Shown here: piece after piece, positions 32,801 to 56,878 of the stretch
How the letters are laid out: every line of letters starts with the position of its first letter
Position numbering within the stretch: the stretch's first letter is position 1
From: Candidatus Hadarchaeales archaeon
GTDB taxonomy: Archaea > Hadarchaeota > Hadarchaeia > Hadarchaeales > WYZ-LMO6
Direction of reading: 5' to 3'
DNA: 64,000 nt
Assembly: GCA_038736355.1 (NCBI GenBank)
Contig: JAVYML010000001.1
Span: 1-64,000, forward strand
Position numbers and translations under genes: made by a program
Notes under the pieces: generated by a model
The model's input: only the letters and a program-made list of their open reading frames with translations
Databases searched by the model: none
Told to the model about the DNA's origin: nothing

Positions 32801-32913
32801 GAAACTTCGGGTGTCTCACCGAGCAAACGGGAGAGGACTTCCTTTCCCCCGGGCTTTTCTTCCTTAAGCCTCAGGAGTCTCTCGATCTCCTTGCGTTTTT
32901 CCTTTCCTACCAC
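26842..32913 (-). CDS. klbA: KlbA-type secretion ATPase interrupted by three inteins
   Basis: The 2023-residue precursor should splice to a 544-residue ATPase. N-extein residues 1-326 hold the N-terminal domain and Walker A GGTGSGKT (298-305). Extein pieces follow at 796-810, 1297-1348 (Walker [10 protein letters not shown]) and 1873-2023 (His box GTLHANS). Rejoined, they restore IISIEDTAELQ, WVRLETRPPN and GHNGCMGT, as in uninterrupted homologues. All three inteins sit in the catalytic core between Walker A and the His box. The third occupies the site known for the Methanocaldococcus KlbA intein. The gene powers the pilus-like machine with the two T2SF genes downstream and a membrane protein upstream. 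Confidence 0.95.
27298..28869 (-). mobile_element. Intein 3 (Ala1, class 2, KlbA site), 524 residues
   Basis: Precursor residues 1349-1872, between NTGHNG and CMGT. It starts with Ala instead of Cys or Ser, like the known KlbA class 2 inteins that splice by direct attack of the +1 Cys, and it ends VLVSN. Block B is LTRNHPLF. Both LAGLIDADG motifs ([18 protein letters not shown]) keep their acidic residues. A helix-turn-helix segment ([17 protein letters not shown]) follows the endonuclease. Confidence 0.93.
29026..30483 (-). mobile_element. Intein 2 (Cys1) with unusual splice residues and an internal HTH, 486 residues
   Basis: Precursor residues 811-1296, between WVRLE and TRPPN. It starts with Cys and ends ATNPN. 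The block B His is replaced ([10 protein letters not shown] where TxxH is usual), and the penultimate His is Pro. LAGLIDADG motifs VGVISGDG and LAGLVDTDG look complete. A helix-turn-helix ([20 protein letters not shown]) is inserted before the endonuclease. The boundary is set by the extein continuity seen in related ATPases. Confidence 0.88.
30529..31935 (-). mobile_element. Intein 1 (Ser1, LAGLIDADG type), 469 residues
   Basis: Precursor residues 327-795. It begins [12 protein letters not shown] after IISIED and ends ILCHN before Thr. Block B is VTKDHSLF with the expected Thr and His. Two degenerate LAGLIDADG motifs (LAGIWLADG and GYLSANG) show a dodecapeptide homing endonuclease; the second has lost its acidic residue to Asn, so cleavage activity is doubtful. 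Splicing residues look intact. Confidence 0.92.
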
Positions 32914-40761: not shown

Positions 40762-40854
40762 TGGTAGCCCCGCCCGGATTCGAACCGGGGTCGGCGGCTC
40801 CAAAGGCCGCCATGCTTGACCATTGTGCTCCTTGCGGATCTACACCACGGGGCT
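40762..40854 (-). tRNA. tRNA-Gln (TTG) with predicted 17-nt D-loop intron
   Basis: Acceptor AGCCCCG/CGGGGCT with encoded ACCA; anticodon stem-loop GCGGC CTTTGGA GCCGC with anticodon TTG. The D loop again carries 17 extra bases at the same position as in the neighbouring tRNA-Gln. Removing 40823-40839 gives GTGTAGTGGTCAAGCAT, a standard archaeal D arm. Confidence 0.9.
40823..40839 (-). other. Predicted intron in tRNA-Gln (TTG) D loop
   Basis: GTGT before the intron pairs with GCAC near its 3' end. Bulges AGA and AAT flank this 4-bp helix, and TCC-GCAA-GGA forms an internal tetraloop hairpin. Predicted cuts are AG^A and AA^T, matching the layout of the intron in the neighbouring gene although the bases differ. 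Confidence 0.72.
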
Positions 40855-43384: not shown

Positions 43385-44362
43385 ATGACCGGTAAGATGC
43401 TTGGTCTCCTCCTTTCTTTCCTCGTCATCCTCTCCATCGTTTCCTATGCCAGTTACCGGTTGGGATACCAGAAGGGCAGGGAAGCCATAACTACGGTGAG
43501 GATGGGTTATCTCGTGGGGGACATCCACCAGATAGGGTGCTTTGTGGGGAGGGAACTGGAACTCTTCGAGAAAGAAGCGGGTGCGGGTTTCAGGTTCAGA
43601 TACTTGGAATATGTCAACGGTCCTACGCAGATGAATGAATTCATGGCTGGGGGATTGGACGCGGGATATGTGGGAGTAGTTCCTGCCCTCATCGCCTTCT
43701 CGCAGGGTGCTGACTTGAAGATCGTGGCTTCAGCCAATCTGGAGGGCTCGGCACTGGTAGCCCGAAAGGATCTCGAAAACATCAGAAGCTTGGACGGAAA
43801 AACCGTTGGAACTCCCGGTGCAGGCACCATCCAGAACGCCATGCTCTCCATGATAGAGAACCAGCTGGGTATTACCTTCAGCCGTAAGCATTACGCCGGT
43901 CCCTCCACCCTTCCCCTCGCTTTGGAAAAAGGGGATATAGACGGCTACATAGCCTGGGAACCCTTCTGTGCGGAAGCGGTGGTGAATGGTACGGGAAAGG
44001 TGGTCTATACCTCCCATGAAATCCTGCCAGGACACCAATGCTGTGTTCTCTATATCTCCGGAAAGCTCCTAAGGGAGGACAGGGACCTAGCCCTCTCCAT
44101 AGTTAGAGCCCATGTAAAAGCCATGCAATTGGTGAAAGAAAATGAGAATAGGGCCATGCAAATCTTCTCCTCCCGTACCGGAAAACCCATGGGCGTAGTC
44201 CAAGAAGCCTGGAAGAGGATGGTCTGGGAGTACAGACCCAACGTGGAAAGCATCAGGACCTTTGCCAAGCTCCTCATAGAAACGGGGGCCATCAAAGGAG
44301 TGGAAAATGTGGATGCCTTTGTGGAGAATGCCCTTGACCTCACCCTTTTAGGGGAAATCTAA
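43385..44362 (+). CDS. Sulfonate/taurine/nitrate-type ABC transporter binding protein
   Basis: A 325-residue lipoprotein-like or membrane-anchored solute receptor with an N-terminal helix (residues 5-25). The NMT1/SsuA-like fold shows in VRMGYLVGDIHQIGCFVGRELELF, GGLDAGYVGVVPALIAFSQGA, LDGKTVGTPGAGTIQNAML, and GDIDGYIAWEPFC. A cysteine pair GHQCCVLY lies near the ligand cleft. The family imports sulfonates, taurine, nitrate or pyrimidine precursors; sulfonate is attractive because coenzyme M is 2-mercaptoethanesulfonate, but this is inference. Confidence 0.85.
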   Translation: MTGKMLGLLLSFLVILSIVSYASYRLGYQKGREAITTVRMGYLVGDIHQIGCFVGRELELFEKEAGAGFRFRYLEYVNGPTQMNEFMAGGLDAGYVGVVPALIAFSQGADLKIVASANLEGSALVARKDLENIRSLDGKTVGTPGAGTIQNAMLSMIENQLGITFSRKHYAGPSTLPLALEKGDIDGYIAWEPFCAEAVVNGTGKVVYTSHEILPGHQCCVLYISGKLLREDRDLALSIVRAHVKAMQLVKENENRAMQIFSSRTGKPMGVVQEAWKRMVWEYRPNVESIRTFAKLLIETGAIKGVENVDAFVENALDLTLLGEI

Positions 44363-44373
44363 ATAGGTTTTGG

Positions 44374-45153
44374 ATGAAGACCTCCCGTCTCAGGGAAGTG
44401 TTCTACCTCCTTCTCCCCCTACTAGCCGTGATGCTCCTATGGGAATTCTCCTCCAGAACCATACATTCATCCTTTTTTCCAAGTCCGGAGGAAGTTTTCC
44501 GCTCCTTCTTTACCCTCCTAACCAAGGGAGACATGGAAAAAATCAGGTTACACGAACACATCTTCTATAGCCTCCTCAGGGTGTTGGGGGGATTCACCAT
44601 AGCCTGCTCCACCGCCATACCCCTTGGCATCCTGATGGGGTTGAGGGAAGGTGTTTATCGCTCCTCCAAGTCCGTGCTGGAACCCATCCGTTTCATTCCG
44701 CCCCTAGCCTGGATACCTTTGGTTTTTCTCCTCCTTTCCGGAACCTGGCGCTATCTCTTCGTGATATGGCTGGGAGCTTTCTTTCCCATCCTCATCAATA
44801 CCATGGGGGGTATCAAAAGGACCAACCCAACGTTGGTAGAAGTCTCGAAGAGCTTTGGGGCCAAAAACAGGACCACGGTGAAAAAGGTGGTGATACCCAG
44901 CGCCCTCCCAGAAATCCTCTCCGGAATGAGGGTGGGACTGGGAGTGGGTTGGATGTGCATCGTGGCGGCCGAGATGATGAGCGGGGAAAGCGTGGGTCTG
45001 GGTAAGCTCATCCTGAAAGCCTCGGAATTCATGAGGGTAGACATGGTCGTAGCGGGAATGATCACGATAGGGATGCTCGGGCTCCTGATGAACGAAATCC
45101 TTCTACGTACGGAGAAGCGTCTCTTCTTGTGGAGAAAGGAAATCCTCCTCTGA
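44374..45153 (+). CDS. Sulfonate-type ABC transporter permease
   Basis: A 259-residue inner-membrane permease of the SsuC/TauC type with about six helices. The coupling motif that touches the ATPase is visible as EVSKSFGAKNRTTVKKVVIPSALPEI (here VSKSFGAKNRTT), followed by GMRVGLGVGWMCIVAAEMM. The start is 12 bases after the binding-protein gene and it is in operon with the ATPase gene. Confidence 0.9.
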   Translation: MKTSRLREVFYLLLPLLAVMLLWEFSSRTIHSSFFPSPEEVFRSFFTLLTKGDMEKIRLHEHIFYSLLRVLGGFTIACSTAIPLGILMGLREGVYRSSKSVLEPIRFIPPLAWIPLVFLLLSGTWRYLFVIWLGAFFPILINTMGGIKRTNPTLVEVSKSFGAKNRTTVKKVVIPSALPEILSGMRVGLGVGWMCIVAAEMMSGESVGLGKLILKASEFMRVDMVVAGMITIGMLGLLMNEILLRTEKRLFLWRKEILL

Positions 45154-45162
45154 GGTGAAACC

Positions 45163-45921
45163 TTGCCCGCAAAGATAAAGGTCAAGATAGAAAACCTTTA
45201 CAAGAGTTTCGACACGAGTGAGGGAAAACTGGAAGTCCTGAGGGGAATCTCCCTGGGGATAAAGGAGGGGGAGTTCGTTTCCGTGGTGGGTCCCTCCGGT
45301 TGCGGAAAAACCACCCTGTTAAGGCTTGTGGGAGGCCTAGAAAAACCTTCTTCCGGAAAAATCATCATAGACGGAAAGCCACCCAATCCCTCCCTACACC
45401 GCTTGGGTTTCGTCTTCCAAGAAGATTCTCTTTTCCCTTGGAGAACCGTCTGGGAAAACATAAGGTTCGGAAGGGAAGTGAGGGGGATGGAAGGGGAGGA
45501 AAGGGTAAAGGAGCTGGTGGAGATGGTTGGCTTGAGGGGTTTTGAAAACTGCTATCCCCACCAGCTCTCAGGGGGGATGAAACAAAGGGTAGCCATCGCT
45601 AGGGCCCTAGCCGTGGATCCCGATCTCCTGCTCATGGATGAGCCCTTCGCCAACCTCGATGCCCAGACCCGCTGGATTCTCCATCAAGATCTAACCAAGA
45701 TCTGGGAAGAGGTGAGGAAAACCATCCTCTTCGTGACCCATAACGTGGAGGAAGCCGTCTATCTTTCCGATAGGGTGATCGTGCTCACTTCCCGACCGGC
45801 CAGGATAAAGAGGATACTGGAGGTGGGTCTCCCCCGTCCAAGGGACAAGTTGAGCAAAGAACTTGTGGAACTCAGGAAAAGGGTGGTGGAGCTCCTCAGG
45901 GAAGAAGTACCTTACCTCTGA
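45163..45921 (+). CDS. Sulfonate-type ABC transporter ATPase
   Basis: A 252-residue ABC ATPase of the SsuB/TauB type. Walker A is [13 protein letters not shown], the Q-loop [17 protein letters not shown], the signature [15 protein letters not shown], Walker [17 protein letters not shown] and the switch His FVTHNVEEA. The TTG start follows GAGGTG. It completes the three-gene importer and its last bases overlap the end of the convergent carrier gene. Confidence 0.92.
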
Positions 45922-47258
45922 GGACCCCTCGCTATCCAGAGACCCATCTTCTTCCACATCAAGAGGAAGAAAAACAGGGAAAGGAGAAGGCCTAAGAGAG
46001 TTAGGGAGTAAAAGAGGGGTGCCTCCGCGGAACCATAGCCCCTCAAGGGGAAGAAGAGAAGACCGTAAAGGGGAAGGATGAGGAGGAACATGAGGGGCAT
46101 GCCCTTTACGTAGTCCTCCACCGCAGGCGTGCGCAAATCTGGATCCACCACCCTGCATAGGGCTATGCCAGAATCCATGGTACCCGTAAGGGTACCGTAG
46201 GTCACCAGTGTCCTTTCGAACCTATAGTTCCTCCAAACCCTCTTGGGCAACCAGAGGAAAACCGAGACCGTAACCACTCCTCCCGCCAGGGAGAGTAGGA
46301 TGAGGGGACCAGCGTACATCCTCAAAGCCGGCAGGGAAATGGCGGCCACGGAGGCGGCCACGGCATAATCCACGCATACACCGGCCAAATGCTTCTGGAC
46401 CTCTGGAGAAAGGAGATGTTCTGCCCCCATTTTCTCCATGAGTTTCCTAACCGCCATACCCACCATTACCGTCACCACGAACATGGCCCCCCAGGCCGTT
46501 TCCGAACCTAGGGAAAGGAACTTCCCAACCAGATAAGCTAGGGCATAGACCAAACCGCAGAGGGCCACTTGTAGACTCAGGGTATCCACCGCCTCGGAAG
46601 AAGAAACGGTCTCCCCGAAGGCTTTTCTCCTATGCTTGGGTATGATACCCGTCCATACCTCCTCGGGTACCCTGCGCAAATCCTTGAGGAGGGTAGCCTT
46701 TCCCCTCCTCACCCCCAAGTTGAGCCATATCGTCCCCACACCATAGGCCCAGAGAAAACCTACTGCCCCGAAGATCAGTCCCACCTCCCCTCCATGCAAA
46801 AAACCTTCCTTCTCCCAGGAGGAGCCGAAAGAAAAGGCCTGACCAGGACCCGAGGCATATCCTATGGCCATGAGGGAACCGAAGTTGGGAAAGAGATCGG
46901 GATAGAGGGTATCGATGAGGAAGAAGGTCAGGACAAAACCCACGAGCAGCTGGAGAGAAAAAACAAAAGACATCAGAATGCCCGTGCTCGCTGCCTGCCC
47001 ATAACTCCTTCCCTTCCCTATCATCCCCAAGGCTAGGGCGGCGAAGGTGAAGTTGAGGAGATGGTAGATCAGGTCTTCTAGGTAGTGGAAGGAAACTATT
47101 CCCAAAACCTGGGCTAGGAGGAAACCCAAGAAACCCGCTACCAAAGCATTGGGTATGAGCAACCTCTGTAGGAGCCTGATCCTCAAGCGGAGAAAAGTGG
47201 CCAGGAGTAGTAGGAGGCTGAGGAGGAGGAAGTCGAAAAGGGGAGACCATTCTACCAA
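45912..47258 (-). CDS. Sodium/glutamate symporter (GltS)-like carrier
   Basis: About 448 residues and 10-12 membrane helices in two inverted halves. The pore-loop signatures are [14 protein letters not shown] in the first half and [15 protein letters not shown] in the second, matching the reentrant glycine-rich loops of the ESS/GltS family, which moves glutamate or other carboxylates with sodium. The TTG start behind GGGTGGGAAC was chosen because longer frames run into the divergent regulator promoter. Substrate is not provable from sequence. Confidence 0.8.
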
Positions 47259-47304
47259 GTTCCCACCCCTCTTTCCCTCCTTCCCTTTCTCTAAAATAGT
47301 GTTC

Positions 47305-47312
47305 TTTTTATG
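47305..47312 (+). promoter_or_regulatory. TATA box of the regulator gene at 47334
   Basis: TTTTTATG lies 22-29 bases before the GTG start, so the mRNA should be leaderless. The element GGACAAAG (47312-47319) overlapping its end is the reverse of the CTTTGTCC found before the ABC operon and, as CTTTGTCT, near mcrA. Confidence 0.45.
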
Positions 47313-47333
47313 GACAAAGGGGAAAACTAGAAT

Positions 47334-47924
47334 GTGACCCTGCAAAAATGGGAAGAAGTGCTCAACTCCGCCCTAGATTCCGATGAGAAGTTCAGGGAAA
47401 CCCTGAGGAGAACCCTAAAGGAGCTCCATTTGGACATGAAGGAATTCAGCAAACTTTCAGGTGTTTCTGAGAGTTCCCTTTACAAAATCCTCTCTGGGCA
47501 TAGGGTCAATCCCAGGCTCTCCACTCTCCGGGACATCCTCAAGACCCTCAGGAACCTCGAAAGCCCTAAGGAGGAGGAACCCTTCATCGCCCTCATAGCC
47601 TCGAGATCCTCCCTCGATGCCCTAACCACTTCCCACGTGACGGTGGGAAACTTCAGGATAAAGATCAAGGGATATGGTGCCTCCAGCATCGAGGATGCCA
47701 TTGTCGCCGCTCTCAGTGCCGAGCAAGAGGGAGCCAAAGCCATCGTTTGCGGACCCGTGGTGGCAACCATCTTAGAAAAAATAGTGAAGGTACCTATTTC
47801 CTCTTGTCCCGTTTCCCTTTGCAACCAACCCCTCTTAGAAGCAGCCAAAAATGCCGCCAAAAAAATCGCGGAAGAACTCGCTGTGACTAAGAGAGAGGCT
47901 GAGAGACGAAAAGTAATACGGTAA
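47334..47924 (+). CDS. HTH transcriptional regulator with PrpR-like sensor domain
   Basis: A 196-residue putative regulator. Residues of about 20-75 are an XRE-like helix-turn-helix (FSKLSGVSESSLYKILSGHR). Residues of about 85-190 form an alpha/beta domain (GASSIEDAIVAALSAEQEGA, then VCGPVVATIL and SSCPVSLCNQPLLEAA) that resembles the N-terminal sensory domain of PrpR-type activators. A CPVSLC motif could bind a metal or ligand. It opens the island containing SCP2-like, AOR and McrA genes, so local control is plausible. Confidence 0.75.
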   Translation: MTLQKWEEVLNSALDSDEKFRETLRRTLKELHLDMKEFSKLSGVSESSLYKILSGHRVNPRLSTLRDILKTLRNLESPKEEEPFIALIASRSSLDALTTSHVTVGNFRIKIKGYGASSIEDAIVAALSAEQEGAKAIVCGPVVATILEKIVKVPISSCPVSLCNQPLLEAAKNAAKKIAEELAVTKREAERRKVIR

Positions 47925-47955
47925 GGTTAAATATCCCCCCTACCTTGAAAAAAAG

Positions 47956-48402
47956 ATGCCTGGAGTGGAATCGGATCTTTTCATAGCAGGGGTGAGGAGT
48001 TTTCTCAACGTCCTGATAAGCAACATAGAGGCCGACCCACAGTTCCAAGAAAAGACCAAGGGAAAGAACTTTTATCTTACCAACGTGATAAGACTTCCAC
48101 CATCTTTTAAGGAAAAAGGCATGGAAGACGCCTACATGCGCATTCACCTCTCGGAAGGTAAGGTGGAAGCCGAAGTGGGAACGAGTCCCCTAGAGGCGGA
48201 CTTGGTGCTGGAGGGGGACTGGGAGACTTGGAAGAGCGTGATCTCGGGTCAGGAAGAACTTTCCAACGCGGTGGTGGAGGGAAAAATACAAGTCGTACAA
48301 GGAGCGGAGAAAATGGATTTTGAAGTCATCTCGCTGATCGCCAACGCCATCATGCGTTCCACCGTTCCCATGGACGTCTTCAAGCTGATAGAACCTTCTT
48401 AA
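47956..48402 (+). CDS. SCP2-like lipid-binding protein, copy 1
   Basis: A 148-residue single-domain protein matching sterol-carrier-protein-2 folds. The GKNFYLTNVIRLPP strand, AYMRIHLSEGKVEAEVG, PLEADLVLEGDWETWKSVISG and NAVVEGKIQVVQGAEKMDF follow the usual SCP2 order, in which the polar face covers a hydrophobic tunnel. In other organisms SCP2 domains carry fatty acyl-CoA or lipids. It follows the regulator gene by about 30 bases, with a TTAAATA between them, and converges on AOR with a 4-base overlap. Confidence 0.75.
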   Translation: MPGVESDLFIAGVRSFLNVLISNIEADPQFQEKTKGKNFYLTNVIRLPPSFKEKGMEDAYMRIHLSEGKVEAEVGTSPLEADLVLEGDWETWKSVISGQEELSNAVVEGKIQVVQGAEKMDFEVISLIANAIMRSTVPMDVFKLIEPS

Positions 48403-50342
48403 AGGGCAGGAAGTCTAAAGCCTTCACCCTCCAACCCCAATTCTCTGAGCTTCTGGGGAGTAGGTAGGCCCGTGGCCCCATCCCAGCCCCTCTCTTCGTA
48501 GTAATCCTTCAACAAGTTCTCCATGTCTTTTTCCGATAGGACTACCTCCCCATAATAATCCCTCAGGAGGACTTCTCCCTCCGGTGTCTTTCGAGGTATG
48601 AGCCATATCTTAGAGCACTTGTAATCTTCCTTGCGCAGTCCCTCCTCCGCGTTCAGCATTTTCCAGAAGGTAAAGATCCTCTCCCCTTTCTTCCTCAACT
48701 CTTCCACTCCCACCTCAAAACCTGTAACGAGGGAGTAGAGTTCCGCTGCCAAGTTCAAGTTGAGATATTTAATACCCAAAAAGCCCCAGAGGGCATGAAC
48801 GATGCAAGTACCCAAGCTGTTGTAGATCACCATCCTGTCCTCCGCATATCTCGCATATCTCGCGGGATTGAACTTCATGGGTCCCCCAAAAATCCTATCC
48901 AACTCCCCTTCGGAAAGCCCCATTTCCTTGGCGTCCACTTCCCTCAGCACTTGGGGATCCACCATTGGAACGGTGTAGAGGGACTGGGTTCCCCCGTGAT
49001 GGGGTCGAGGAGAAGTGAGGTGGGAGAAGGCCTGAGGATGGAGTCTGGTGAACCTGGCATCCTGAATGGCGTCAACACCCCTGAAGAGGCCCGTTCCCTC
49101 CTCGAATTCATCCGGGTCAGCTCCCAGCTTCTCGGAAGCCGGATACCATCCATCCGAAAGCAACCCTCCAAAACCTTCCCTTTCCGCTATCTCCTTGAAA
49201 AGGCGCCGATAAGTTTCGAAGTTCCTTTCCAACTTTTCTTTGAGCTTTCCCGTCTTGGAGAGTCTGGTAACCCAATTCACCAATTGGCTGGTGGTAAAAT
49301 AACACATTCCCTCCCTGTTACACAGGTCCAAGAGGGCTACCGCATCCCTCGGATCCTCCAACTCCAACCTCTGACCCACTCTCGCAGGCAACATGTAGGA
49401 TCCCGTAAAGGTGGAAAGTCCGGCATGTCTTCCTTCCCTGATGTGGAAGTCCACCCTACATCCCATCGGACAGCCCCAGCACGAAGAGTTCCTTCCCCCT
49501 TTGAACTTCAACCAAGTCTCCGGACCATAGAGCTCGTTCCACTTGGAGTATTCCCACACACCCTCCCTGACGAGGGGAGAGTGGGCGGGCCATCCAGCTG
49601 CTATCCCCAACACCCTCCACTGGGGAAGAAGGGGATTCTTCTCTATGTCCTCCCTCCACTTCTTGACCAACTCCGAGAGCTCCTCTTCCTTTGCCACCGC
49701 TATTCTTCCCTCACCCCTGGCCACCACGGCCTTCAGATGCTTGGAACCCATCACTGCCCCCACCCCGAATCTTCCCAGTGTTGCCACCCTGTCCACGATG
49801 GCCATCGCATGTCTCACCCTTCTCTCGCCCGCCCTCCCTATCACCGCTAACCCTGCCCCCGGATGCTCACGAAGGAGCCATTCCGTAGTCTCGTAGGTAT
49901 CCTTCCCCCAAAGGGCTGAAGCATCGAGGAGTTCCGCCCTTCCATTCTCCAAATTCAGATACACGGGCTCCTCCGCCTTCCCTACTATTACCACATGGTC
50001 GTAACCAGCTCTCTTGAGCTGTACTCCCAGTCTACCTCCACAAACGGCTCCATCCACGAAGTGCTTCCCCCCTCTCGAGAAAATGGGTGATTTGGTGGTG
50101 GCCACCAACTTGGTGGCTCCAGGAACTTCCGTTCCAACCAAGGGGCCTGCCCCCAAAACTAAGGGGTTGGCGGGAGAAAGGGGATCGGAGAGGGGTTTGG
50201 CCTCCTCCCTATAAAGCTTCAAGTTTATTCCCAACCCTCCAAGAAAACCCTTTACCAAATCCTGGGGAAGATCCCTTCTCCGGATCTCGCCCGTGCTTAG
50301 ATCCACTTTCAGTATAGAACCAACGTAACCGAAATGACCCAC
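48399..50342 (-). CDS. Aldehyde:ferredoxin oxidoreductase family protein
   Basis: A 647-residue tungsten- or molybdenum-pterin enzyme that interconverts aldehydes and carboxylates with ferredoxin. The N-terminal domain (YVGSILKVDLSTGEIRRRDLP, FLGGLGINLKLY, and NPLVLGAGPLVGTEVPGAT) is typical. The iron-sulfur cluster ligands appear as CWGCPMGC near residue 295, with a further cysteine downstream. Compared with classic AOR the segment near residue 360 (DLCNREGMCYFTT) is changed, so the substrate may differ. In this island it could oxidise a fatty or short aldehyde. Confidence 0.92.
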   Translation of the reverse strand: MGHFGYVGSILKVDLSTGEIRRRDLPQDLVKGFLGGLGINLKLYREEAKPLSDPLSPANPLVLGAGPLVGTEVPGATKLVATTKSPIFSRGGKHFVDGAVCGGRLGVQLKRAGYDHVVIVGKAEEPVYLNLENGRAELLDASALWGKDTYETTEWLLREHPGAGLAVIGRAGERRVRHAMAIVDRVATLGRFGVGAVMGSKHLKAVVARGEGRIAVAKEEELSELVKKWREDIEKNPLLPQWRVLGIAAGWPAHSPLVREGVWEYSKWNELYGPETWLKFKGGRNSSCWGCPMGCRVDFHIREGRHAGLSTFTGSYMLPARVGQRLELEDPRDAVALLDLCNREGMCYFTTSQLVNWVTRLSKTGKLKEKLERNFETYRRLFKEIAEREGFGGLLSDGWYPASEKLGADPDEFEEGTGLFRGVDAIQDARFTRLHPQAFSHLTSPRPHHGGTQSLYTVPMVDPQVLREVDAKEMGLSEGELDRIFGGPMKFNPARYARYAEDRMVIYNSLGTCIVHALWGFLGIKYLNLNLAAELYSLVTGFEVGVEELRKKGERIFTFWKMLNAEEGLRKEDYKCSKIWLIPRKTPEGEVLLRDYYGEVVLSEKDMENLLKDYYEERGWDGATGLPTPQKLRELGLEGEGFRLPAL

Positions 50343-50388
50343 ATCTTTCCCTCACCTGAGAGACTAAAAATGTGCGTTTCCAACAAAA

Positions 50389-50397
50389 TTTATAAAC
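50389..50397 (+). promoter_or_regulatory. TATA box of SCP2-like copy 2
   Basis: TTTATAAAC lies 22-30 bases before the GTG start of the SCP2-like gene, in the 76-base divergent gap to the AOR gene. Confidence 0.5.
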
Positions 50398-50418
50398 TCC
50401 TTTTTCAAAAAGAAAGGC

Positions 50419-50985
50419 GTGGGGGAGGATTTAAAGAAAATCGTTGAAGAAGCCTTCCAACTTCCTTTAGACGAGCTGAGGGGGAACCTCCCCACCCTTC
50501 TCAACGGCATAAAGGAATTTGGAGTTTCCAAACTCATGGAGCTGGTCCCAGATCTCATACCGAGGTTGGCAAGTAGGCTCAAGGAAGTAAACGTGACCCA
50601 GTTCATTAAAGATGATCCCGAAACCTCTGCTAAGTTCATGGATATCCTTTGGGAGGGAATTAGTTTGCTCGCCGAAAAGAATCCGGATGTGAAGGAGGCC
50701 CTAGAGAGGGTGGGAGAGGTGTCCGTGAACTTGGAAGCGATAGATAGTCCCATGAGGGGTCATTTCAGGATAAGCGGGGGTAAGCTTTCTGGCGGATCCG
50801 GATTGTTAGAAAAAGCCGATCTCACGGTAAAAGGCTACACCCAAGTCATGATAGAATTGTTTTTGGGAGAAAGGGATCCAACGGAGGCCTTTTTCAAACA
50901 GCTCATAAGAACGGATGGAAGTATACCTTTGGCCATGAAAGTCTCCTCAGCCATGATGGAGGTCTCCCAGCTCCTCAAGGGTTAA
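50419..50985 (+). CDS. SCP2-like protein with N-terminal helical extension, copy 2
   Basis: A 188-residue protein. The first 90 residues are helical (LPTLLNGIKEFGVSKLMELV and FMDILWEGISLLAEKNP). The last 95 residues form a shortened SCP2-like domain (GHFRISGGKLSGGSGLLEKA, ADLTVKGYTQVMIELFLGE, DGSIPLAMKVSSAMMEV). The GTG start follows AAAGAAAGG. Its stop lies one base from the stop of the convergent 490-residue unknown. The domain call rests on pattern, not on a strong motif. Confidence 0.6.
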   Translation: MGEDLKKIVEEAFQLPLDELRGNLPTLLNGIKEFGVSKLMELVPDLIPRLASRLKEVNVTQFIKDDPETSAKFMDILWEGISLLAEKNPDVKEALERVGEVSVNLEAIDSPMRGHFRISGGKLSGGSGLLEKADLTVKGYTQVMIELFLGERDPTEAFFKQLIRTDGSIPLAMKVSSAMMEVSQLLKG

Positions 50986-50986
50986 T

Positions 50987-52459
50987 TCAATCTACCTTCT
51001 TCCCCATTTTTTTGTCTGCCAGCTTGCTGTAATATTCTAGGTTTTTCCCTGAACCGTCGTAACCTTCCTCCACCATGATCTCCACTTTCTCCCTAGTGAT
51101 GTCGAAGGGCCATATCTGACCTTTGTTGGGATCGAGGGGAGGAAAGTCCTTAGGCTGGAGGGGCTCCACGGAAGGATCGAAGAGGAAGTGGAATCTACCC
51201 GTCTCCTCTATGGATGGCAATTGGCCCGTTTCCTTGTTCAGACCTCCCTCGCTCTCCAGCAATTCCAGGAACTCTTTGCTGGGTGGGGTCTCCAAGTACT
51301 GCCTGATATTGATAGGCTCCAGAGAGGGTGGAATGGCCCTCGCCAAAACGAAGGGCGGAAGGATTCCCTTTACGTGGGGATAGAACTGACCATGCTCCCA
51401 CTGGAACTTCCTTATCTTGAAGAGGTTGGGAATCTTTTTCTCACTGCAGGCATATTTGTGGATGGTGTTATACCCTCCCAAGAAAAGTTCACTCATCCTC
51501 TTCACGAAGGTCTCTTGCGTAAGACCCAACAAAGTTCTCAGGATGGGGGGCAAGGGCACGTAGGAGAAGAGGTTGTACCTGACCCCAAGGGCAGCCGTGT
51601 TCAGGCCATAGTAAACGTAAAGGAAGAACTCGCTACTCATGAGGGCATTCTGGGCGATGGTGCTGATGTAAGCCGAAACACCCGAGATGTAAAGTGTGGC
51701 GTGTAACCACTTGGAGAAGAGCTCCGTACGCATATCCATGATCACGTCTCTTACCCCCATCCCCCAATCGTAAGGATCCCAATAATACTTGGGAACATCC
51801 CTCACCTTGACCCCCGTCCTGAGGTGTCTACGGTTTAACCTATCGTCCAGCTCTTCTTTGCTACTGGCTCCCGTCCAAGTCTCCGTTGAGGTCAGGAAGC
51901 ACTTCTCATCCTCCTCATCAAAGTATTGGGAAATGTCCTTCGAGGCTCCCAGAAGCCAACGATGTACTGGGATGCCATCCTCGTTATGATAACCTAGGAT
52001 CCAATAGACTTCCCTAGTAAAGTCATCCACATGAACATACTCCACGGTAGCATATTTTCCATAAAGCATCTGACAAGTGGTCCTCCCCACATCCGATCTG
52101 CAAAGGTAAGCGGGTGGGTGACTCAGATAGCAGAGGTTGTCCATGAGATAAAGTTCTTCCCTGGGTGGAGGATTTTTGAGCAGCCTTCTGGAAGTCTCCA
52201 CCGCATGGTCTACGCGGTAGGACCACTCCACGAAGTTCTCGTACTTGAGTCTCTGCCATTTTTCTGGGGTCATGCCCAAGTATCTGAAGATGTGCCTCCA
52301 AACCGGCATAGAAGTGAAGATTTCCAAGCTAAGGGGCATTTGTCCTGGGAAGGGGTTGATGGCACTGAGATAATGCCAAATCTTATCCAAACCCATGCGT
52401 TTGATCCACTCTTCCCATTCCGCCTTTTGCTTGGCACTCCTTTCCTCCATTGTTTCCAT
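50987..52459 (-). CDS. Unrecognised 490-residue protein of the McrA island
   Basis: No family recognised. The protein is rich in Trp, Tyr, Phe and Met, and the N-terminal 100 residues are helical. A middle block holds several cysteines (DNLCYLSHPPAYLCRSDV, GRTTCQMLYG). A more hydrophobic part (residues 260-330, LHATLYISGVSAYISTIAQN then SSEFFLYVYYGLNTAALGV) is not a clear membrane domain. No McrB or McrG signature was found. It follows SCP2-like copy 3 by 9 bases behind a GGTGGGAAG site, so both act together. A soluble enzyme acting on a hydrophobic substrate is a guess only. Confidence 0.7.
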   Translation of the reverse strand: METMEERSAKQKAEWEEWIKRMGLDKIWHYLSAINPFPGQMPLSLEIFTSMPVWRHIFRYLGMTPEKWQRLKYENFVEWSYRVDHAVETSRRLLKNPPPREELYLMDNLCYLSHPPAYLCRSDVGRTTCQMLYGKYATVEYVHVDDFTREVYWILGYHNEDGIPVHRWLLGASKDISQYFDEEDEKCFLTSTETWTGASSKEELDDRLNRRHLRTGVKVRDVPKYYWDPYDWGMGVRDVIMDMRTELFSKWLHATLYISGVSAYISTIAQNALMSSEFFLYVYYGLNTAALGVRYNLFSYVPLPPILRTLLGLTQETFVKRMSELFLGGYNTIHKYACSEKKIPNLFKIRKFQWEHGQFYPHVKGILPPFVLARAIPPSLEPINIRQYLETPPSKEFLELLESEGGLNKETGQLPSIEETGRFHFLFDPSVEPLQPKDFPPLDPNKGQIWPFDITREKVEIMVEEGYDGSGKNLEYYSKLADKKMGKKVD

Positions 52460-52468
52460 CTTCCCACC

Positions 52469-52939
52469 TCACACGAACTCCGTTTTCGATACTAAGAGGA
52501 GCGTGAACTTCGTATATCCATCCAATCTCCTCGTAAACTCAAACATTCTCCCCCTGAACTCGATTTCCCTGTCCATGGTAGCCCATAGGAAATCCTCACC
52601 CGTCTTTATCTTCTCGAAGGTGGAATATTTTCCCTTCATCATCGCCGTATATGATTCTCCTTCCTTGGCCGGTCTGAAATCCACCAACTTCCCCTCTTTC
52701 CATTCCAAGAGAAGCGTCACCCTATCCGTTTCTTTGGCCTTCTTGAAGAGTGCCTCATCTATCATTCCCCCATCCAAGATGGCCTTCTCTAACTCTGGGG
52801 AGAGTCTGGAGATGGGAAGTTCCTCAACTATCCAAAGGATCTTCTCGCTGGCTCCCTCGAGGCTCCCCACATTAGAAGGATCGGAATTCCAACCTTCCTT
52901 GATGCTCTCAAACCATTCCTTCGTTAGCACCAAGGGCAC
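52469..52939 (-). CDS. SCP2-like protein, copy 3
   Basis: A 156-residue protein whose last 110 residues follow an SCP2-like strand order (VTLLLEWKEGKLVDFRPAKE, SYTAMMKGKYSTFEKIKTGE, DREIEFRGRMFEFTRRLDGY, KFTLLLV). The N-terminal 45 residues are helical. It is the first gene of a two-gene unit with the 490-residue unknown. A CTTTTTAAA element 20-28 bases before the ATG suggests a leaderless transcript, divergent from the acyl-CoA synthetase gene. Confidence 0.6.
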   Translation of the reverse strand: MPLVLTKEWFESIKEGWNSDPSNVGSLEGASEKILWIVEELPISRLSPELEKAILDGGMIDEALFKKAKETDRVTLLLEWKEGKLVDFRPAKEGESYTAMMKGKYSTFEKIKTGEDFLWATMDREIEFRGRMFEFTRRLDGYTKFTLLLVSKTEFV

Positions 52940-52994
52940 AAAAAATATAATCTTGAGGTGTTTAAAAAGATTAGGTTCTAAGAAACTCGGAGAA

Positions 52995-53003
52995 TTTATA
53001 AAG
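52995..53003 (+). promoter_or_regulatory. TATA box of the acyl-CoA synthetase gene
   Basis: TTTATAAAG lies 22-30 bases before the ATG; a strong AAAGGAGGAGAGG ribosome site sits between the two, so the true transcription start may be slightly further upstream. Confidence 0.4.
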
Positions 53004-53024
53004 AATTACGGAAAGGAGGAGAGG

Positions 53025-54470
53025 ATGAGTTGTGGTGAGTCAAAAGAATTACCCAAAAGAACTCTAGAGAATCTAAGATACCTCTTCGATCCCCAATCGG
53101 TAGCGGTGATAGGAGCCTCCCGCTCTCCCATCAAGTGGGGAAGTATCATCCTAAAACACGTCATCGAGGGGGGTTTCAAGGGGGAAATATATCCCGTCAA
53201 TCCCCACGAAGAGAACATTATGGGGCTTAAAGCCCATCCGAAGGTTCCGGAGGAAACGGACCTGGCCCTCATCGTCACCCCTGCCAAAACCGTTCCTTCC
53301 CTTTTGAGAGAATGTGCCGAAAGGGGAGTGAAGTCCGTGGTAGTTATTTCGGCGGGTTTCAAGGAAACTGGAAAAGAGGGAGAAGAACTGGAAAGGGAAC
53401 TCGTGAAAATCGCGGAGGAGGAAGGTTTACCTTTTGTGGGCCCCAACTGCATGGGTATTTTCTCGGCTACTTCTAGCCTCTGTGCCCTCATGGCTTCCGT
53501 CAAACCGCTCAAAGGTAATATTTCCTTTCTTTCTCAAAGCGGGAATCTCGGCACCCAGCTGCTCGATCGAGGAACCTACTACCACATAGGTTTTGATATC
53601 TTCGTGAGCACCGGGAATGAAGCCTTCCTGAGATGTGAGGACTTCATAGAGGTACTGAGGGAGAGAAAATCCACAAAGGTCATCCTCACTTATATAGAAG
53701 GGGTAAAGAACGGCAGGAAATTCTTCGAAGTGGCAAGGAAAACCACTCCCCTCAAACCCATCATAGCCCTTAAAGTGGGAAAGACCCAAGCCGGAAGCAG
53801 GGCTGCCAAGTCCCATACGGGTTCTCTTTCGGGCTCCACCCAAGTCTATCGGGGTGTCTTCAAACAGGCGGGGGTAATAGAGGTGGAAACTACCGAAGAC
53901 CTACTTAAGGTAGCCATGGCCTTGGAGCAACCCCTTCCCAGAAACAACCAAGTGATCATCCTCACCAGGGGAGGAGGATGGGGGGTGGCCGCCACCGATT
54001 CCTGCCAAGAAGGTCTGGTGGAGGTACCTCCTCCTCCACCTTCCATCTTGGAAGAGCTGAATTCTTTCATGCCTCCCTACTGGAGCAAAGGTAATCCCAT
54101 CGATACGGTGGCTGAGTTGGATCCTTCTCTCGAATTCAAAATCCTGAAAACCATAGAGAAATGGGATGCCGGAGGACTCATAGTACTTGGGGGACTGGAC
54201 GCTTACGCCACCAGATTCCTAGACCCAGAACTGAGGAAAGTTTATGTGAAGGAAGTACAGATCCCCCTCATCAAAAGACTCATAGATCTCAACCGGAAAG
54301 GTAAAACTGTCTTCGCCGTTGCTCTTAAACCCTTGGACAAATCCAGATCCGTCAAACTCCTCCGAAAAAACCACATTCCCGTTTACTTCTCACCGGAAGA
54401 TGCCGGGAGAGCCTATTCCAAATTAATAGAGTACAAGAAGATGAAGGAGAAGTTGGAAGCCTACGGGTGA
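53025..54470 (+). CDS. ADP-forming acyl-CoA synthetase, alpha subunit
   Basis: A 481-residue CoA-binding subunit of the NDP-forming acetyl/acyl-CoA synthetase. It starts DPQSVAVIGASRSPIKWGS (CoA-binding Rossmann fold), continues GPNCMGIF and LSQSGNLGTQLLD, and has AKSHTGSLSG carrying the histidine phosphorylated during catalysis. The ATP-grasp beta subunit is not in the window. In archaea the enzyme conserves acyl-CoA energy as ATP or activates acids. The ATG after a GGAGGAGAGG ribosome site was chosen; an upstream extension is antisense to the SCP2-like gene. It converges on SCP2-like copy 4 with a 10-base overlap. Confidence 0.9.
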   Translation: MSCGESKELPKRTLENLRYLFDPQSVAVIGASRSPIKWGSIILKHVIEGGFKGEIYPVNPHEENIMGLKAHPKVPEETDLALIVTPAKTVPSLLRECAERGVKSVVVISAGFKETGKEGEELERELVKIAEEEGLPFVGPNCMGIFSATSSLCALMASVKPLKGNISFLSQSGNLGTQLLDRGTYYHIGFDIFVSTGNEAFLRCEDFIEVLRERKSTKVILTYIEGVKNGRKFFEVARKTTPLKPIIALKVGKTQAGSRAAKSHTGSLSGSTQVYRGVFKQAGVIEVETTEDLLKVAMALEQPLPRNNQVIILTRGGGWGVAATDSCQEGLVEVPPPPPSILEELNSFMPPYWSKGNPIDTVAELDPSLEFKILKTIEKWDAGGLIVLGGLDAYATRFLDPELRKVYVKEVQIPLIKRLIDLNRKGKTVFAVALKPLDKSRSVKLLRKNHIPVYFSPEDAGRAYSKLIEYKKMKEKLEAYG

Positions 54471-55045
54471 CCTCTAGGCCAGCACCTTGGTCTGGGAACT
54501 TCGAATCCCAGAATGGCCGTCATCACATCGTATTGGTCCAATCCCGCCGTGGTATTCCCTATGATTTCCGCCCTTCCCTCGTACACAGCGTTGAAGACGC
54601 TTATTTCCCCTCCCAGAATGGGAACGAAATCGTAGTATCCCATCTTAATCCAGAGATCGGGCTCCTCTTCTGGTGGACCCTCCAGCACTTGAGTGGGATT
54701 CAAGAACATCCTCACGAACTCCGTCCCACGTTTGGGGTGTATTATCTCATAAACGATTAGACGGGTGGGCGCCGAGGCGGCCAGCTCCATGGCCTTGGGA
54801 CTCGAGATCGCCCTTCCTATGATGAAATCCATGAAGAGCTCGTATGCCGTCGGCTCCCTTCCCCTATCCTGAACCCATTTGGAATAGGGGGGCTCCCTCC
54901 ACCACCCATCCGGACGAGGACGGCACATGCTTGGAGGGGGAAGGGGTTCTGGAGTAACCCTGTCCAAAACGGATGGAAGTTTGGTTTTTTCATATTCCTC
55001 TGCAAACTTGGGATACATCTCCCGAAGGGAAGGCAACTTTCCCAT
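54461..55045 (-). CDS. SCP2-like protein cotranscribed with mcrA, copy 4
   Basis: A 194-residue protein beginning 9 bases after the mcrA stop behind GGTGAGAGG, so it is translated from the mcrA transcript. Residues of about 85-180 look SCP2-like (TRLIVYEIIHPKRGTEFVRM, EEEPDLWIKMGYYDFVPILGG, NAVYEGRAEIIGNTTAG). The first 70 residues are Pro- and Trp-rich (PPPSMCRPRPDGWWREPPYS). It was compared by eye with McrG and McrC and shows no resemblance to either. Its coupling to mcrA makes it the best candidate partner. Confidence 0.65.
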   Translation of the reverse strand: MGKLPSLREMYPKFAEEYEKTKLPSVLDRVTPEPLPPPSMCRPRPDGWWREPPYSKWVQDRGREPTAYELFMDFIIGRAISSPKAMELAASAPTRLIVYEIIHPKRGTEFVRMFLNPTQVLEGPPEEEPDLWIKMGYYDFVPILGGEISVFNAVYEGRAEIIGNTTAGLDQYDVMTAILGFEVPRPRCWPRGHP

Positions 55046-55054
55046 CCTCTCACC

Positions 55055-56878
55055 TCAGTGGGGCGGGAGTACTGGGTCCCTCTCCCCCGCAGGCATGAAC
55101 TGTCTTATGCCTGCCTTGGCGATACAGAGCCTGGGATGTTTGAAGTCGAAAACCAGATGGGGATCGGCGAAGGCCACCTTTACGATGGGGCTCAGGCACC
55201 AGGCGCTTCCCCTTCCTATCATCGCAGCATATACGGCGGCGCCCCTAATGGCTCCATGGGCTGCGGTATAGGACTGCATGGGATAGTTCAATCCCCTCAA
55301 TTCCACTAGGTTCCCCTCCTCCGGCCTGAAGCTGCACAGATAGGGGAGGCCTATGTGGTCTTGAACTTCCTGCCCCGCCCAGCCCGTTCTGAGCCAACCC
55401 TCCTTCATGGCAAAGGCGATGGCATAATGGGCCGCCATCAACCCCATCGTGGAACTTCCCGTGAGCAAGGCGGCAGAAGAGGCCGCTATGGAACCTATCA
55501 CGGAAACCCTGTGGGCACCTCCCCAGTGGAATTCCGTAAGGGTGGGGAACTTCTCATAGCTTTCCATTGCGTACTGGACGATCGAATTCACCATCGTCCT
55601 CACCGTTTCCCAGCGGAGTGGAACCTTTCGAACTCCCTGCATGTAACGGTGGGAGAGCTCTATGAGCTCCATGGAGATTTCGTTCATCACCTCTGAATAA
55701 GCAGCGGAAGCCACGGTGTTGGAGAAACCTATACCCCCACTCATGTAGAAACCCAACCAAAGCACGTTGTCTATCACCGCCGCTATTCCTCCTACCCCTT
55801 CCTGTACGGCATGCGAATATTTCAGGGCCTCCTCCTCATCCTCCTGGGCTACCTCCAGGAACCTCCTGGCCGGGAGATCCCTTTCCGCCTGCATGAAGTC
55901 GCAGATGTAACCGTCGGGGAAGCCTCCGGGTTCGTTCGTTCCCCTCATCCTCTGATACCACATCTTGTTCCCCATCCTCACCACCCTGGCGTGCTTGAAG
56001 GAATAGGCCAGATCAGAGATGATGTGTTCTCCGGAGAGACCATAGGAGGCTATGAAGGCCATGGTGTTCTGCATGGCCGCCCACCTGGCGGCCTCATCCC
56101 CATCCGCCATGCGAACGGCTAGGGTGGGGATGCGGAGGACCACCCAGATGGCATCCCCTATGGCTGCCTTGAGCCTCTCGGCCCTGGTCGGATGGAAGAG
56201 CTTGTCTATGTCTATGAGGAAGCGCTTGTCCAGGGCATCCTTCACCTCATCCGAACCCGTGATGACCTTCGCATAGGCATCCTTGACCAGGAGGGGGTTG
56301 ATCTCTGACATGTGTTCCTGGGCCACGGCCCCCCCACACATGGTGTGCTGGAGGGTTTCGAGGTAGAGGTTGATGGTTTCTGGGGTGACCTCCTTTCCAG
56401 CCCTTACGGTGAGCATCCGATGGGCTATGTCCAGGTTCACTATGACCGTGCGTTTTATGTCATCCAGCATCTGCTGGATGGCCACGTTGTTGAGGTGGTG
56501 GGTATCATCCTGTTCCACCACGATGTTGGTTCCAGAGATGAGGAAAGGTTCCAACTGTCTTTGACCTATGGGTAGACCCACTGCCCTGTTGTAGGCTGGA
56601 AGACCCCTCTCTATGGCCACCTGTCTTCCCAACCTGGCGAACTCCTGCTTGCGCTTTGACTGCCTGTAACCTCCCCTCTTGTACATCTGGGAATCTTGGA
56701 GGGCAAAGGGATCGGTACCGAAAGTATTTTTCAAGCTTTCGTAAAGGACTCTTTCTTTTTCTATAGGAAGAAATCTAGCAGAAACAGCGTAAAGTTCTCT
56801 CACATATTCCCTTTCTCTAGCCTCTATCTGCCCTCTTTCCTGAAAGGCTTTTTCACCCCTTTTCTCCGAAGTGGACAT
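55055..56878 (-). CDS. mcrA: Divergent methyl/alkyl-coenzyme M reductase alpha subunit
   Basis: A 607-residue McrA homologue recognisable along its whole length: KRKQEFARLGRQVAIERGLP, GQRQLEPFLISGTN, GGAVAQEHM, RMRGTNEPGGFPDGY, GFYMSGGIGFS, and PIVKVAFADPHLVFDF. The F430 axial glutamine is kept (Q187), as are the equivalents of methyl-His257 (H296), Arg271 (R310), Tyr333 (Y378) and thio-Gly445 (G502). Changed positions are Arg270 to Gln, methyl-Gln400 to His, Phe443-Tyr444 to Trp-Ala, and Cys452 to Ile. About 50 residues extend the N-terminus. No mcrB, mcrG, mcrC or mcrD lies nearby. It is first gene of a two-gene operon. Confidence 0.93.
   Translation of the reverse strand: MSTSEKRGEKAFQERGQIEAREREYVRELYAVSARFLPIEKERVLYESLKNTFGTDPFALQDSQMYKRGGYRQSKRKQEFARLGRQVAIERGLPAYNRAVGLPIGQRQLEPFLISGTNIVVEQDDTHHLNNVAIQQMLDDIKRTVIVNLDIAHRMLTVRAGKEVTPETINLYLETLQHTMCGGAVAQEHMSEINPLLVKDAYAKVITGSDEVKDALDKRFLIDIDKLFHPTRAERLKAAIGDAIWVVLRIPTLAVRMADGDEAARWAAMQNTMAFIASYGLSGEHIISDLAYSFKHARVVRMGNKMWYQRMRGTNEPGGFPDGYICDFMQAERDLPARRFLEVAQEDEEEALKYSHAVQEGVGGIAAVIDNVLWLGFYMSGGIGFSNTVASAAYSEVMNEISMELIELSHRYMQGVRKVPLRWETVRTMVNSIVQYAMESYEKFPTLTEFHWGGAHRVSVIGSIAASSAALLTGSSTMGLMAAHYAIAFAMKEGWLRTGWAGQEVQDHIGLPYLCSFRPEEGNLVELRGLNYPMQSYTAAHGAIRGAAVYAAMIGRGSAWCLSPIVKVAFADPHLVFDFKHPRLCIAKAGIRQFMPAGERDPVLPPH

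Follow-up and report, generated by a model that had tools for sequence, protein, structure and literature searches.

A gene island around an alkyl-coenzyme M reductase gene in a Hadarchaeales genome and a protein family that accompanies it

How archaea convert alkyl-coenzyme M (alkyl-CoM) to acyl-CoA is regarded as an open question (PMC10811742; PMC10322722; PMC9118554, which speaks of uncharted chemistry). A stretch of 64,000 nucleotides (nt) from an uncultured, thermophilic Candidatus (Ca.) Hadarchaeales archaeon (contig JAVYML010000001.1; hereafter the window) raises this question with an island in which mcrA is accompanied by four SCP2-like genes (scpA to scpD), genes for an aldehyde:ferredoxin oxidoreductase (AOR) and for the alpha subunit of an ADP-forming acyl-CoA synthetase (ACD alpha), a gene for a protein of 490 residues (U490) and a regulator gene (Table 1). 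An earlier note on this DNA had proposed an alkane or lipid-metabolism island around mcrA that covers only the first part of a pathway. An island for alkanes or long-chain lipids with this limited coverage is well supported by an McrA of the alkyl-CoM reductase (ACR) type, by conserved synteny and by the same families beside long-chain-type ACR in several archaeal groups. We think it fairly likely that the island provides the front end of long-chain alkane oxidation, by which alkyl-CoM would be made and then converted to acyl-CoA. Within it, U490 is a candidate for the conversion step or for a carrier of the alkyl chain.

The window McrA matches Pfam MCR_alpha_N (1e-98) and scores 520 bits against the NCBIfam methyl-type equivalog model, below its cut-off of 768, as is expected of an ACR-type alpha subunit. 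Its closest matches (56 to 93% identity) come from Hadesarchaea, BA2, Methanolliviera/Methanoliparum and Helarchaeota, with 93% to Hadesarchaea WYZ-LMO6 and 77% to Bathyarchaeota BA2. By these matches and profile scores, the gene is placed with the alkyl-CoM reductases (ACR, Mcr group IV) of the divergent alkane clade, and by similarity it is assigned to the ACR type linked to long-chain alkanes.

All genes named in the earlier note were located with the open reading frame (ORF) list and Pfam/NCBIfam scans, and McrA, AOR, ACD alpha, the 490-residue protein and the regulator were confirmed in both position and order; the McrA ORF, however, looks chimeric (see below). Starting from mcrA, the order is scpD, ACD alpha, scpC, U490, scpB, AOR, scpA, the regulator and a membrane protein. 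The genes overlap or nearly touch, as had been noted: convergent ends overlap by 4 bp (AOR/scpA) and 10 bp (ACD alpha/scpD), while about 77 bp separate the divergent pair AOR/scpB and about 80 bp the pair scpC/ACD alpha. A synteny search in other archaeal genomes, proposed in the note as a check, found all ten genes in identical order and orientation in S4B3_HD70 (HD70; locus L006), which belongs to another genus of the same Hadarchaeota family, with amino acid identities of 58 to 89%. This indicates that the gene set is not random. Partial synteny was also seen in S1_Bin and WYZ-LMO6, and co-occurrence with this mcrA type was found elsewhere, contrary to the first outcome that the note had named as refuting its proposal. 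A foreign origin by composition was considered and dropped, as nothing marked was seen (island G+C 0.518 versus 0.546 for the window).

The U490 family and alkyl-CoM reductase across archaea

Neither Pfam nor NCBIfam yielded a match to U490. The protein had been listed as unknown and its weight missed, as it turned out to be the most informative part of the island. A U490 family profile was searched over 805 genomes of four archaeal groups (28 Hadarchaeota, 294 Halobacteriota, 227 Asgard and 256 Bathyarchaeia). Among the Hadarchaeota, the family was found in four genomes, those of the window and of three other members of its family (two in the same genus), and was not found in the other 24 searched. 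It was present in 10 of the 294 Halobacteriota, 4 of the 227 Asgard and 1 of the 256 Bathyarchaeia genomes.

An ACR-type McrA profile was run over the latter three groups; for the Hadarchaeota, ACR contigs were recovered only from the window's family, in agreement with PMC10811742. Nine Halobacteriota genomes scored 798 to 1170 bits with this profile, the next best reaching 598 (no others exceeded 600), and all nine are among the ten with U490. In the Asgard group and Bathyarchaeia, the genomes with ACR-type McrA (four and one, respectively) are identical to those bearing U490; two of the four Asgard McrA proteins score lower (506 and 645 bits), and no McrA was found in any other Asgard genome. 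Altogether, U490 accompanies this ACR in 18 of 18 genomes and occurs in one further genome (G060), while it was not found in some 147 Halobacteriota genomes whose McrA is solely canonical-scoring, one of them with four McrA genes.

The genes are also close to one another: in the genomes compared, some 1 to 17 kb separate U490 from the ACR mcrA where one contig carries both, and relatives stand beside mcrA in BA2 (68% identity), Helarchaeota (about 23%) and one euryarchaeal metagenome-assembled genome (MAG). The window genome (1.27 Mb in four contigs, 95.8% complete) has six U490-family genes. Two of these flank the only ACD-beta gene found (contig C3); paralogues are also found beside an AMP-forming ligase and between two acyl-CoA dehydrogenases. 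The pairing with a ligase recurs in all four family genomes, that with ACD beta in three (the window genome, HD70 and WYZ-LMO6), and the position between acyl-CoA dehydrogenases in two.

Several observations were made around other U490 copies. On contig C3 (L085, 1-10480), the two paralogues that flank ACD beta adjoin a series of proteins whose N-termini are pilin/archaellin-like (GISPLVATILLL type). In WYZ-LMO6 (L112, 1575-3474), the U490 copy closest to the window genome's C3 copy (78%) is beside scpB (81%), an arrangement that suggests exchange among paralogues. BA2 (L005, 4657-7307) has two possible redox partners directly ahead of scpC and U490, a glycolate-oxidase-like FAD protein and a CCG iron-sulfur protein. 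One Helarchaeota genome (G029; loci L041, L047, L051 and L053) has 24 U490-family matches.

Possible roles of U490 and a proposed route

An alignment of 46 U490-family members revealed residues R82, P115, P116, G134, E150, H158, E160, R210, R211, G216, D242, R244, E246, G292, P302 and P304 conserved in 39 to 46 of them, with the charged set E150, H158, E160, D242, R244 and E246 kept in 39 to 45. As the full-length model (predicted local distance difference test, pLDDT, 61) was poor outside residues 60-260, the core (269 residues) was modelled alone (pLDDT 79, predicted TM-score 0.81). In VIA-align, the best eight rows for this core model were all SCP2-fold chains (Z 4.7 to 5.6, aligning as many as 111 of the 118 residues in 6ovp; next rows 4.2), although Z values below 8 may reflect a common arrangement. 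Foldseek against the PDB gave no match at E ≤ 0.001 for the core model and no usable match for the full-length model, and hhalign of U490 against the local SCP2 families (A4 and A5) yielded a probability of 0.2%, showing no sequence-profile link. Owing to the low Z and the lack of such a link, an SCP2-like core is a lead rather than a finding. Other readings of the fold were dropped: FtsA/MreB-like Foldseek rows had TM-scores near 0.15; a metal hydrolase (PDE4D rows, E 0.09) had chance-level E-values over some 70 aligned positions; and the E/H motifs, if read as diiron or heme-oxygenase-like, would call for a helical bundle, whereas the model shows an alpha/beta fold.

What might U490 do? It is a real possibility, even if we would stop short of calling it probable, that U490 acts without catalysis, as a carrier or chaperone. 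It would then be an enlarged protein of SCP2-like type that keeps alkyl-CoM or acyl chains sequestered, the chemistry being left to another enzyme. The SCP2-fold rows, the presence of U490 copies beside several kinds of acyl-handling genes and the absence of a recognised cofactor motif in U490 are consistent with this notion, but the low Z values and the negative Foldseek and profile comparisons speak against it, and the conserved charged set exceeds the apparent need of a plain carrier. More tentatively, and rather unlikely at present, the family might be the enzyme, or one enzyme, converting alkyl-CoM toward acyl-CoA in archaea with long-chain-type ACR; an SCP2-like core would then have gained a catalytic charged cluster, with paralogues serving different steps or chain lengths. 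That U490 and scpD are instead assembly or maturation factors of the long-chain ACR, analogous to McrD/McrC, appears improbable. Both adjoin mcrA in many loci that also hold genes of maturation and activation, namely Mmp3, Mmp15, an McrA methyltransferase, a YcaO thioamidation protein and an A2-like ATPase; however, several of the six U490 genes here have as neighbours not acr but genes for acyl-CoA ligase, ACD beta and acyl-CoA dehydrogenase, and the 24 matches in a single Helarchaeota genome also speak against such a role. Lastly, ordinary fatty-acid or membrane-lipid metabolism that merely happens to lie beside mcrA is very unlikely: the SCP2, AOR and ACD families are not confined to alkane oxidation, but U490 tracks ACR in four groups and was not found in the 24 other Hadarchaeota genomes.

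The carrier genes themselves were examined individually. scpB is a clear SCP2 member (PF02036 2.6e-9, 37.7 bits versus a cut-off of 21.3; family profile versus solved SCP2 2e-8). The scpD protein has no PF02036 match of its own and is assigned to SCP2 through its family, as its BA2 orthologue matches (2.5e-8, 34.6 bits) and the family profile matches 4uei (4.4e-5). scpA (PF02036 E 0.012, 16.4 bits; orthologue 0.0025, 18.5 bits) stays below the same cut-off, and scpC has no PF02036 match and a profile-profile E of 5.5e-4 (30%). Of the four SCP2-like carriers that had been proposed, two are thus SCP2 members, while scpA and the borderline scpC resemble SCP2 but are not counted as members. Genes of the scpD type are near the ACR mcrA in 12 compared loci, mostly directly adjacent. 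The small genes adjoining U490 in other loci (cluster c9) had no Pfam match in the members scanned, and no SCP2-like nature is claimed for them.

By its domains, the AOR gene encodes a tungsten aldehyde:ferredoxin oxidoreductase. The protein is full length, with AFOR_N (2.5e-63, 213.9 bits), AFOR_C (2.4e-52, 178.8 bits) and the CxxCxxxC motif, and its closest relatives of solved structure are ordinary AOR/FOR enzymes. It is 51% identical to the Methanoliparum AOR that follows that genome's U490 gene. ACD alpha has Succ_CoA_lig and CoA_binding_2 domains and matches TIGR02717, an acetate-specific equivalog, at E 3e-130 and 435 bits, below the cut-off of 567. The only PF13549 (ATP-grasp_5) match above cut-off in the genome (contig C3, 273 bits) is the ACD beta; on this domain evidence, both subunits of an ADP-forming acetyl/acyl-CoA synthetase are present. 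Uptake, binding and oxidation of a hydrophobic substrate had been suggested for the island. No evidence for uptake was found inside it, and the AOR/ACD pair would fit the end of an alkyl-to-acyl conversion rather than general oxidation.

From the gene content, synteny and co-distribution observed here, together with the SCP2 membership of scpB and scpD, we infer the following order of steps, SCP2 ligand and roles of U490, AOR and ACD. ACR (two alpha copies with McrB and McrG) would add coenzyme M to the alkane. The resulting alkyl-CoM, detergent-like in its long chain and its sulfonate head, would be bound by SCP2-fold proteins, the scpD gene directly following mcrA. SCP2-type domains bind long alkyl chains, and carriers adjoining ACR therefore make chemical sense. 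Alkyl-CoM might then be converted to an aldehyde-level compound in a step that involves the U490 family as enzyme or chain-binding partner, AOR would oxidise the aldehyde to the fatty acid, and ACD (alpha in the island, beta on C3) or AMP-forming ligases would make acyl-CoA, which would enter a beta-oxidation encoded elsewhere in the genome.

Several points weigh against this route. G060 has U490 and only canonical-scoring McrA, with no detected ACR; its U490 clusters with the Methanoliparum one, and a contig may thus be missing. Shared descent, and perhaps movement of the cluster as a unit, inflate the co-distribution, since related genomes are not independent. ACD is near ACR in few other genomes, the 'long-chain' class of this ACR is an assignment by similarity, and in the shorter-chain Alkanophaga the expression of AOR genes was no more than moderate (PMC10322722). 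Even so, U490 tracks one ACR clade in four groups and is found close to it, with paralogues next to acyl-CoA-forming genes, which makes it a specific and testable candidate in the question of how alkyl-CoM becomes acyl-CoA.

Copies of mcrA and neighbouring genes

The subunits missing from the island were found elsewhere in the same genome: contig C4 (5,574 bp) carries mcrB and mcrG, so that alpha, beta and gamma subunits are all present. C4 reads mcrA 3' part, scpD1, mcrB, mcrG, U525 (a 525-residue U490 paralogue), mcrA 5' part. The first 127 nt of C4 are identical to the window mcrA starting at nt 927 of the latter, and the final 111 nt are identical to it up to nt 274, with divergence beyond; identity between the copies is seen directly only over these 127 and 111 nt, and the 890-bp identical core would follow from a single assembled version. 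The N-terminal part of the window McrA is 92% identical to the copy after the smc/o234 genes and 80% to the other copy, whereas the gene after the window mcrA is of the scpD2 type (91% versus 55 to 57%). WYZ-LMO6 contig L002 carries, in one piece, the mcrA1 3' end, scpD1, mcrB, mcrG, U525, a complete mcrA2, scpD2 and ACD alpha. Breaks within mcrA are also seen in the contigs of three further MAGs. In two of these, HD70 and S1_Bin, the ends on either side of the break share exact stretches of 127 and 141 nt, as is typical of a repeat that assembly could not resolve. These patterns suggest mcrA copies with a near-identical core and diverged ends.

The window mcrA is thus probably an assembly collapse of two tandem copies into a chimeric ORF. 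Rejoining the window and C4 pieces would add 6,226 bp, i.e., about 6.2 kb absent from the window. The probable collapse would explain why mcrB, mcrG and the second mcrA are outside the window and were overlooked in the earlier interpretation. The window contig is continuous through mcrA, as it would be in a true single-mcrA arrangement (a deletion variant or strain mixture, with C4 from another strain), but we consider this highly improbable in view of the two-copy layout on one piece in WYZ-LMO6, the contig breaks in HD70 and S1_Bin, and a second mcrA already published for Hadesarchaeota (PMC6783470). The collapse is also a warning for other MAGs of this family, in which the count of mcrA and the placement of mcrBG may be wrong.

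Table 1. Features of the island and its borders in the window
Feature	Position	Strand	Basis
Membrane protein, weak Glt_symporter match	45912..47345	-	Pfam; syntenic in HD70 (58%)
HTH_3 regulator with PrpR_N-like C-terminal part	47334..47924	+	HTH_3 match; PrpR_N sub-threshold
scpA, weakly SCP2-like	47956..48402	+	sub-cut-off PF02036
AOR, tungsten-type aldehyde:ferredoxin oxidoreductase (by domains)	48399..50342	-	AFOR_N, AFOR_C
scpB, SCP2-family	50419..50985	+	PF02036
U490, uncharacterised family co-distributed with long-chain-type ACR	50987..52459	-	family profile searches, alignment
scpC, borderline SCP2-like; precedes the U490 gene in BA2 and HD70 too	52469..52939	-	profile-profile
ADP-forming acyl-CoA synthetase alpha subunit (ACD-like), KSHTGS histidine motif	53019..54470	+	domains, TIGR02717
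scpD, SCP2-family, directly after mcrA	54461..55045	-	family-level SCP2 match
mcrA, alkyl-CoM reductase alpha; as assembled probably mcrA1 5' part and mcrA2 3' part	55055..56878	-	Pfam/NCBIfam, identities, chimera evidence
890-bp mcrA core, probable collapsed direct repeat	55826..56715	-	bounded by exact matches to both contig C4 ends (127 and 111 nt)

Other parts of the window also drew attention. Just outside the island, at 43385-45921, is an SsuA-family sulfonate-type ABC transporter (binding protein, permease and ATPase); coenzyme M is a sulfonate. A 2023-residue ORF occupies 26842-32913, where G+C is high (0.62 at 28-32 kb), and the ARAGORN tRNA call at 40762-40854, with an undefined two-base anticodon, is possibly spurious or split.

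Comparison with known systems

Sequence relatedness puts the island in the Hadarchaeota family that GTDB names WYZ-LMO6 and for which the name Ca. Cerberiarchaeaceae was proposed (PMC10811742). Hexadecyl-CoM formation has been established in a culture of Ca. Cerberiarchaeum oleivorans, for which beta-oxidation is also reported (PMC10811742), and AOR has been proposed for the alkane route in this organism as well as for Ca. Ethanoperedens. ACR in this family, the duplication of mcrA and AOR as a candidate were thus already known, and what may be added here is a place for U490 and the SCP2 proteins in the pathway. Neither the SCP2 genes nor the U490 family was found in the text of PMC10811742 covered by term searches. 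In the open-access papers searched, neither was described as a regular companion of this ACR type.

The window genome resembles Ca. C. oleivorans in its family (93% McrA identity to WYZ-LMO6), its ACR, its AOR and its NDP-forming acyl-CoA synthetase, but that organism is described with a single complete Acr operon, in contrast to the probable two-copy mcrA here. A second mcrA within one mcr operon was reported in 2019 for the Hadesarchaeota MAGs JZ-1 bin_103 and JZ-2 bin_199 (PMC6783470); the likeness is in the operon, the difference being that here the second mcrA is probably hidden by assembly. The model for Methanoliparia leads from alkyl-CoM through alcohol, aldehyde and fatty acid to acyl-CoA (PMC6703427), a route similar to that proposed here, and AOR and a U490-family gene are adjacent in M. 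thermophilum NM1a, as seen in our analysis. The enzymes suggested in that paper, however, are corrinoid methyltransferases, dehydrogenases for alcohol and aldehyde, and CoA ligases, and a term search found no mention of sterol carrier proteins in it. Finally, scpB and scpD by sequence, and perhaps the U490 core by a weak structural match (Z about 5), resemble SCP2 and the C-terminal SCP2 domain of alkylsulfatase, but the U490 family differs from this domain in being several times longer (about 370 to 580 residues), with insertions, conserved charged residues and no sequence-level link.

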